In this document: positions 23,001 through 24,607 of the stretch, piece by piece | How the letters are laid out: each line of letters starts with the position of its first letter | Position numbering within the stretch: the stretch's first letter is position 1 | Assembly: GCA_035651655.1 (NCBI GenBank) | Contig: DASRFG010000028.1 | Location: 62,001-126,000, forward strand | Length of the DNA: 64,000 nt | Reading direction: 5' to 3' | DNA from: Terriglobales bacterium | Lineage (GTDB): Bacteria > Acidobacteriota > Terriglobia > Terriglobales > Acidobacteriaceae | Program-made: the position numbers and the translations under genes | Notes under the pieces: model-generated | Told to the model about the DNA's origin: nothing | Seen by the model: only the letters and a program-made list of their open reading frames with translations | Databases searched by the model: none

Positions 23001-23504
23001 TCAGGTTTTCACCGTTGAGTGAACCTTACGCAATGCCTCAATGATTTCTTCGTTTTCCGGGGTTTCATCCAACGGATAAGCCTTGCTGAAAGCAATCTTC
23101 CCCTCTTTGGACACAATGAACACGGCGCGTTCATTGATTCCGGGAATCGGCGGACCTTCGCGAAAAATGCCATATCGTCTTGCGACCTGCCCGTGAGGAA
23201 AGAAGTCACTGCACAGAGGAAAGTCAGTGAGGCCGATACTTTTTTTTTGCCACGCGATGTGACAAGGTACAGGGTCACAACTTATGCCCAGAACCTGGGC
23301 ATCGAGTGCGGCGAACCTGATGAGATCAGCATTGAACGCCGGCACTTGCGCGGATCAAGTCGGGGTCCAGTCCAAAGGATGAAATGCCAGCACCACGTTC
23401 TTTCGGCCACGATAGTCGCGGAGCCGCACCGGAGAGATTTGTTCCCCGGTGCAGGCCAGCAATTCAAAGTCAGGCGCCACCTCTCCTACCGCCAGGGCGG
23501 GCAT
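23001..23504 (-). CDS. Peroxiredoxin with in-frame TGA at the peroxidatic position (predicted selenoprotein)
   Basis: Read from the ATG at 23504 (GAGG five bases upstream), the frame gives 167 residues with a single internal TGA at 23357-23355, codon 50. On both sides the protein is a clean AhpC/TSA peroxiredoxin: VGEVAPDFELLA, RGRKNVVLAFHPLDWTPT, then the TGA, then SAQVPAFNADLIRF and PGINERAVFIVSKEGKIAFS. The TGA occupies exactly the Cys of P-x3-T-x2-C (P43, T47, position 50). The later Arg (R126) is kept. Peroxiredoxins reduce peroxides; in known selenium forms this residue is selenocysteine. A hairpin follows at once. Other cysteines are C18, C76, C81 and C98. Alternative: a nonsense mutation that happened to hit the catalytic codon. 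Gene callers would annotate only the 114-residue C-terminal piece. Confidence 0.8.
23324..23357 (-). promoter_or_regulatory. Candidate bacterial SECIS-like hairpin at the UGA codon
   Basis: Starting inside the TGA, GATC pairs with GATC 29 bases on, then after a mismatch GCG pairs with TGC (with one G-U pair). An inner stem AGTG/CGTT (including G-U pairs) then closes a CCGG loop 16-19 bases from the U of UGA. Bacterial SECIS elements lie at this place and distance inside the coding region, with guanine in the apical loop. The stem is only moderately stable and I folded it by eye, so it is suggestive, not proof. Confidence 0.4.
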
Positions 23505-23689
23505 AGATCCTCACTCGCAGTGAAACAGGTAGTCAAAGGGACAGTTTAACAAACCATCAATGCGAGCTATGAGGTGCTCTGAGATAAAGAGGGAAAACAA
23601 AAGCTGTCCTATTCGGCATCGTATATGGAAAGACCGGAACTCGACGGGAAGCCGGCCACAGTTCTCATTTTCAGCTGACGGAGCCTTTC

Positions 23690-24607
23690 ATGTTTGGATC
23701 CAAATACAACTATGATCGCTTCACGCGCAACGTGCTGCTGAAGGACGTTGCTACGCACAGATTTGGCGGCCCACAGGCGGGGGACAAGGCGCCAGATTTC
23801 AAAGTAAAGAGTTTGGATGGTGAGACTATCCAACTCAGTGATTTTCGTGGCAGCCAGAATGTGGTGCTCACTTTTGGATCGGCAACCTGCCCAGCGACCG
23901 CCGGCTCAATCCGCGGCCTGAACCAGCTTTACGATGAATATTCCGACGATGACGTGCAGTTTCTCTTCGCCTATGTACGCGAGGCGCATCCCGGCGATAA
24001 GCTGCCGGCGCACCGGTCAGACGGCGACAAAAAGGAAGCCGCGGAACTGCTGCGGGAAGAAGAAAACATTGAGATGCCGATTTTGGTGGACGATGTTGAT
24101 GGCAGGCTCCACCGCAAATACGGCAGCATGCCAAACTCGACTTACATAATTGACAAGTCTGGCCGGGTGGCGTTCCGCTCACAGTGGACCCGCCCCAGTC
24201 GGATCCAAGCGGCCTTGGATGAACTGCTGGACCGACAGGAGGAAACTGGCGACGAGCATGTGATCGTGCGCGGCGGCGCGGACAATTCTGTTCCCATGCG
24301 CTACGGGCTCATGTATTCGCATCGGGCTTTAGGACGCGCCGGCGACTCTGCCGTGCAAGATTTTAAAGAAGCGATGGGGCGAAGCGGACGAGTGGCACTC
24401 GCTACCAGCCGAGTTGCGGAGCCGCTGGTCTTGAATCCGGGAAAGGCGTTCGCCGGCGCCGCGATTGCGGGAGGTGTGATTGTTGCGGCATTGCTAGCGG
24501 GCATCAGCCTGCGGCAACGACGCATGGCGATGCGCTCGCCCTACGACGTTCCGCGTCCTAAAAGGCGTGAACGCAGCACGGGTGAATACGAGGCAGTCGG
24601 AATCTAG
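23690..24607 (+). CDS. Membrane-anchored redoxin with deiodinase-like motifs
   Basis: 305 residues. A thioredoxin-fold domain (about 28-185) contains GDKAPDFKVKSLDGETIQL and NVVLTFGSATCPATAGS, where the single active Cys sits in an FGS-x-T-C pattern. FAYVREAHPGDKLP and YIIDKSGRVAFRSQW follow. FGS-x-T-[C/U]-P and EAHP-x-D are hallmarks of the iodothyronine-deiodinase-like branch of redoxins, many members of which use Sec at this Cys. A C-terminal hydrophobic helix (AGAAIAGGVIVAALLAGISL) and a basic tail would anchor it to the membrane; there is no signal peptide. It diverges from the peroxiredoxin above (186 bp apart). Iodine chemistry is not implied; a thiol- or peroxide-related role is more likely. 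Confidence 0.8.
   Translation: MFGSKYNYDRFTRNVLLKDVATHRFGGPQAGDKAPDFKVKSLDGETIQLSDFRGSQNVVLTFGSATCPATAGSIRGLNQLYDEYSDDDVQFLFAYVREAHPGDKLPAHRSDGDKKEAAELLREEENIEMPILVDDVDGRLHRKYGSMPNSTYIIDKSGRVAFRSQWTRPSRIQAALDELLDRQEETGDEHVIVRGGADNSVPMRYGLMYSHRALGRAGDSAVQDFKEAMGRSGRVALATSRVAEPLVLNPGKAFAGAAIAGGVIVAALLAGISLRQRRMAMRSPYDVPRPKRRERSTGEYEAVGI

Follow-up and report, generated by a model that had tools for sequence, protein, structure and literature searches.

The locus under study lies in the window, by which we mean the whole 64-kb stretch of DNA that was analysed, and consists of a peroxiredoxin gene on the minus strand, interrupted by an in-frame TGA, and a divergent redoxin gene on the plus strand. 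The peroxiredoxin frame runs from 23504 to 23001 (minus strand) and, by translation of the window, comprises 167 residues followed by a terminal TGA; its lone internal stop is the TGA at 23357-23355, codon 50, and the letters around it (MPALAVGEVAPDFEL...FHPLDWTPT-TGA-SAQVPAF...) give the motif FHPLDWTPTU on readthrough, with the TGA in the peroxidatic place of P-x3-T-x2-C. An earlier inspection of the letters (the sequence-only reading) had described a 168-codon frame from the ATG at 23504 broken only by this TGA, with P43 and T47 in register and the TGA as third motif element, and had warned that ORF calling would yield only a 114-residue piece. Translation bears out the frame and the register (168 counts the terminal stop), and the standard ORF list holds just 23001..23345, 114 aa, with its start past the catalytic residue; a GTG stands at codon 54 (23345). 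The gene is among 17 candidates for TGA-joined frames obtained mechanically across the window. An AGGA at 23508..23511 (minus strand), 3 nt 5' of the ATG, is a possible ribosome-binding site, and a SECIS-like stem-loop region, defined by folding and pair counts, extends from +12 to +48 past the UGA (23307..23343, minus strand). The divergent neighbour (23690..24607, plus strand) encodes a 305-aa redoxin with a Cys in the motif GSATCP and, by profile match, similarity to T4_deiodinase (58.5 bits against 27). The same reading had also proposed that the TGA is read as selenocysteine (Sec), had held a random nonsense mutation to be unlikely, and had asked for a search for selA, selB, selD and tRNA-Sec, for a comparison of homologues at codon 50, and for substitution rates past the TGA.

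The read-through protein is a member of AhpC-TSA (PF00578), scoring 110.5 bits where 26 is the cut-off, and its nearest solved structure by sequence is Mycobacterium tuberculosis AhpE (E 1.9e-25). Its fold is predicted to be AhpE-like, as an AlphaFold2 model made from an alignment of the window protein and 44 Cys homologues (pLDDT 95.5, pTM 0.91) found M. tuberculosis AhpE as its best PDB match in Foldseek (TMq 0.84, 38% identity). Peroxidatic residues are expected close to where a helix begins, as is residue 50 of the model in helix 48-59. Across 35 loci with the TGA, Arg126 is found in 35/35, Thr47 in 33 (Ser in the other two), and Pro43 in 30, while residue 42 is Tyr in 20, His in 14 (the window copy among them), and Phe in one. 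The best conserved Cys column besides 50 is column 98, with Cys in 18 of the 27 core TGA relatives; the other Cys residues of the window copy recur in none (C76), three (C81), and three (C18) of these 27, where no further Cys column reaches five and no resolving Cys is conserved.

In Prx6-type enzymes, the active-site His and the peroxidatic Cys lie at positions 39 and 47, and an additional C-terminal domain brings the protein to about 220 residues in all. The window copy has its His42 eight residues before residue 50, as in the Prx6 type, but at 167 residues it lacks the additional C-terminal domain. Prx6 types possess an active-site His where AhpE types have Tyr or Phe (PMC12697902); His42 stands in place of that Phe or Tyr, and although both sequence and fold are closest to AhpE, we therefore label the protein “AhpE-like” and not AhpE proper. 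M. tuberculosis AhpE (a 1-Cys peroxiredoxin; PDB 1xxu, 4x0x, and 5c04) is the best match in sequence and fold, its peroxidatic Cys aligns with the catalytic residue here, and its 1-Cys character is paralleled by the lack of a conserved resolving Cys in our family, whereas it differs in having Cys at the place of the Sec codon and, in the wild type, Phe at the place of His42 (PDB 5c04 is the F37H mutant). Neither of two named selenoprotein profiles was reached, with 66.3 bits against a cut-off of 270 for the PrxU equivalog NF040737 and 51.3 against 298 for Prx-SUH (NF045827). The Sec peroxiredoxin family with TxxU, including PrxU of Eubacterium acidaminophilum, shares AhpC-TSA and PxxxTxxU with the gene described here (PMC13188914), but the NF040737 profile spans 233 positions as against 167 residues in our AhpE-like protein; Prx-SUH is likewise a peroxiredoxin-fold selenoprotein family, though its motif is CxxU (PMC13188914) rather than TxxU.

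Codon 50 was followed through 100 genomes, counting the window's own; 72 of them had a match at 1e-15. A total of 46 AhpE-like loci were read, namely, the 30 best and 16 AhpE-like ones out of 20 additional hand-picked matches. Among the 30 best, which include the window copy, 27 have TGA at codon 50 and three have a Cys codon, TGT or TGC (L034, L035, and L036), and across all 46 the codon is TGA in 35, Cys in eight, and Ser in three, so that homologues carry TGA or Cys and rarely Ser. With such recurrence, the TGA is not there by chance, and a sequencing error is very unlikely and was rejected because the same TGA is found in other genomes. Stops other than TGA50 occur only at the C-terminal end of the loci read, and there is no frameshift. 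In a codon-by-codon check, the 35 TGA loci fall into 34 genomes, the window's among them, and selA is over the cut-off in every one; in the 23 genomes that lack an over-cut-off selA, no match at E 1e-15 bears a TGA (Fisher 2.3e-5 for the association), with the qualification that some of these 23 are incomplete and that a selA fragment at a contig end of G071 falls just short of the cut-off. A cruder count of any TGA within the match gave 50 genomes, at least one of which (G091, L068) was counted for its terminal stop, and hence we rely on the 34 codon-checked genomes. More broadly, a phylum sample of 149 genomes contained 15 with a match at 1e-30, and eight of these 15 had a TGA in the match, the codon being checked only for G000 (the window's genome) and G054. 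A separate contig scan, in which 80 of 240 relatives were kept, required an active-site Cys in its pattern; it could therefore find Cys forms only and is silent on the frequency of Sec elsewhere.

The genome of the window (4.07 Mb, 39 contigs, 99.78% complete) holds the full set that the sequence-only reading had asked for, each over its cut-off: selA (558.1 bits against 267.9), selB (358.5 against 242.25), selD (361 against 125), and a tRNA-Sec (66.8 bits against a gathering score of 47 for RF01852) that ARAGORN calls as tRNA-SeC with anticodon tca. Such profiles also ring in genomes used as controls: among 14 of them, selB and selD rang in all 14 and passed the cut-off in two, selA rang in four and passed in one, and RF01852 rang in 14 and passed in five. 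We therefore relied on over-cut-off matches only and, for the tRNA, additionally on the anticodon call, which matters since RF01852 passed in those five controls. A second RF01852 match in the window's genome (L017, 56.4 bits, also over the gathering score) was rejected as a tRNA-Sec because ARAGORN reads it as tRNA-Ile(tat). The selD gene (L012:1396-2484, minus strand) contains an in-frame TGA of its own in KAAGUASKL, residue 20 in the translation of that stretch, where SelD proteins usually carry Sec; it is also shortened in the standard ORF list, and by its sequence selD is predicted to be a selenoprotein gene itself.

Sequence past the TGA is as constrained as sequence before it. With the 27 other core TGA relatives as reference, the window copy keeps 5/5 invariant sites before the TGA and 20/20 after, 9/9 and 24/24 of the sites conserved at 95%, 14/14 and 31/32 at 90%, and 21/24 and 42/46 at 80%. 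Its median pN/pS against the 27 relatives is 0.38 before the TGA and 0.35 after (0.35 and 0.41 among the other relatives), values to be taken as indicative only, because synonymous sites are close to saturated. On average, the window copy has an identity of 0.602 to the others on either side of the TGA, and L025, its nearest relative, has 0.605 after the TGA and 0.628 before. Relaxed evolution past the TGA was thus rejected by the kept conserved sites and pN/pS, which answers the question about rates.

RNA structure downstream of the codon was examined in the whole family. The 54 nt past the UGA in the 35 TGA loci fold with a mean of -19.01 kcal/mol, versus -16.77 kcal/mol in synonymous-codon shuffles (z -6.2; 0/100 shuffles as good, and 0/300 in another run), whereas the same stretch gave z +1.1 in 10 Cys/Ser loci, and 210/300 shuffles were as good in a separate run on all 11. 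Fifteen other segments along the gene gave z from -2.3 to +1.8 in the TGA set, and four of them were equalled by just 2 or 3 shuffles in 100. Mean pairing probabilities outline a lower stem (+12 to +18 with +42 to +48), an apical stem (+24 to +27 with +33 to +36), and a 5-nt loop from +28, where G is kept in 31/35 TGA loci, though the codon also constrains this G. When drawn as a 13-pair structure, 73.4% of 455 cells are paired, 10 of the 13 pairs show two-sided changes, and covariation (0.208 versus 0.109 shuffled, 0/500) exceeds that of every slid register, in counts made on the same sequences from which the structure was drawn and with relatedness not fully controlled. RNAalifold gave no consensus structure for the TGA set, and the case for a structure is therefore built on synonymous shuffles and pair counts.

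Within this family, the window copy is atypical. Its UGA plus 48 nt shows no gain in stability over shuffles (z 0.62; 152/200 at least as good), and the apical register of the family is mismatched, with the lower stem partly kept. The usual criterion for such hairpins is a G as first or second base of the loop, and this is seen in the hairpins of SelD and of a second TGA-bearing peroxiredoxin in the window's genome; the window copy is instead predicted to form a 5-bp hairpin whose CUC loop runs from +31 and whose stem takes up the G at +28. In L025, the nearest relative (72% identical), a perfect apical stem of 4 bp closes a GAACU loop. One reading of this difference, which qualifies the Sec interpretation rather than competing with it, is that the relatives decode Sec while the window copy is drifting, its atypical hairpin causing weak Sec insertion and a Cys paralogue (L056, contig C30) taking over. 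The lost register and the paralogue speak for such drift, and the presence of L056 means that the Sec form need not be essential; however, the copy still has the alternative 5-bp apical hairpin and some of the lower stem, the sequence also permits a 4-bp alternative whose loop begins with G (+18), although it is absent from the predicted fold, and the protein is not under relaxed constraint. On balance, we regard drift as improbable.

The two remaining alternatives fare far worse. That UGA is passed by internal restart, or by readthrough with another amino acid through near-cognate suppression and not Sec, is highly improbable: the GTG at codon 54 makes a 114-aa product possible in principle, but without its catalytic residue such a product would have no peroxidase function, constraint is as strong on the codons ahead of the TGA as on those after it, codon 50 alternates with Cys, and the checked TGA forms are confined to selA genomes. 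Equally hard to credit is a recent nonsense mutation from a Cys codon that left only a dead or truncated gene, since the C-terminal fragment in the ORF list and the atypical hairpin, both of which would suit a pseudogene, are set against the same TGA in 35/46 AhpE-like loci of 34 genomes, every invariant and 95%-conserved site kept past it, no frameshift, and no further stop except at the C-terminal end; the earlier judgement that a random mutation is unlikely is upheld by these observations.

The Sec reading of the TGA is likewise supported, by the sel set, by TGA or Cys in homologues, and by the absence of relaxation. The sequence itself establishes the reading frame, the recurrence of the TGA, the Sec machinery, and the constraint; the catalytic residue 50 of this presumed peroxide-destroying enzyme is very probably Sec, written as a stop codon, and we hold with great confidence the explanation as a whole, i.e., an AhpE-like Sec peroxiredoxin whose UGA is read by Sec-tRNA(UCA) and SelB with help from a stem-loop and which works by 1-Sec chemistry. 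The ribosome would decode UGA codon 50 as Sec through Sec-tRNA(UCA) and SelB, and the stem-loop just 3' of the UGA would aid this decoding. In the protein, Pro43, Thr47, and Arg126 would hold the peroxide substrate, and the Sec50 selenolate would attack H2O2 or an organic hydroperoxide and become a selenenic acid, to be reduced by a small thiol or redoxin. We propose an external reductant because no resolving Cys is conserved, and the lack of any conserved Cys column besides 50 argues for a 1-Sec mechanism; peroxide reduction by Sec50 followed by regeneration by an external thiol would be analogous to AhpE, which is 1-Cys by its PDB titles. Given His42 in the window copy and the active-site His of Prx6 types, a Sec-His pair in the active site is possible.

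The divergent deiodinase-like gene recurs beside this peroxiredoxin. It was found in 12 of 130 loci (L024-L153), the window's own and 11 further ones, all 12 among the 46 AhpE-like loci, and in 12/12 it lies on the opposite strand, upstream of the peroxiredoxin, as a head-to-head pair. The peroxiredoxin is the TGA form in 11 of these and the Cys form in one (L034), the match of L057 being cut by the locus end. Since the flanks of the 46 loci were short (0.5 or 1.5 kb, less at contig ends), 12 is a lower bound. The arrangement suggests that the peroxiredoxin and the deiodinase-like redoxin are a functional pair.

Exchange between Sec and Cys was traced on a quick 90-row tree in which codon 50 was set to X in TGA rows, four duplicates were dropped, contig-scan rows were Cys-selected, and 40 of 87 inner branches are open. 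The Sec label changes at least 11 times, at least five of them forced by starred branches, versus 27.9 when shuffled, and Cys tips are nested among Sec tips. This suggests repeated Sec-to-Cys change, a direction that the counts themselves do not give. Table 1 of an earlier survey lists five Cys-to-Sec and no Sec-to-Cys events for the Prx family (PMC1794560). A wider picture, which we put forward tentatively and would not expect to hold in full, is that an AhpE-scaffold peroxidase pairs Sec50 with a Prx6-type His42 and forms one redox module with the divergent deiodinase-like redoxin, and that Sec is ancestral in this acidobacterial lineage and was swapped for Cys (Ser in paralogues) several times.

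The TxxU family of Sec peroxiredoxins is established in the literature (PMC13188914, PMC1794560, and PMC5029168), one source counting 91 members in 78 organisms (PMC5029168). For Acidobacteria, counts are given of three families and four selenoproteins in 2006 (PMC1794560) and of three known selenoprotein genes in one acidobacterial species (PMC12013277). Judged by titles and the openings of abstracts among open-licence papers, no literature on an AhpE-like Sec peroxiredoxin was found. The enzyme is a new AhpE-like member of the known Sec peroxiredoxins and, since many relatives have the same gene, it is real but not unprecedented. Together with its relatives, it adds a probable Sec peroxidase that is distributed across a single acidobacterial lineage and that standard ORF calling reduces to a fragment, and offers close Sec/Cys pairs; if the interpretation is true, these would be natural pairs with which to test what selenium buys.

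Further paralogues were seen in the same and in related genomes. The Cys paralogue L056 (G000:C30:39079-39558) is 51% identical to the window gene, and its nearest row in the tree is the TGA-bearing L058 of G004 (support 82), so this pair also shows a Sec/Cys switch. The second TGA-bearing gene of the peroxiredoxin family in the window's genome, L070 (G000:C25:49024-49431), has its in-frame TGA in place of the peroxidatic codon (FTGGU), an N-terminus that by eye resembles a signal peptide, a downstream hairpin with an 8-bp stem, and TGA-bearing relatives of its own (L071, L072, and L073); it is probably an exported Sec peroxiredoxin. Lastly, Ser paralogues in related genomes, L059 (TCA), L061 (AGC), and L066 (AGC) at the peroxidatic position, group with a Cys paralogue and a Sec paralogue on a starred branch.
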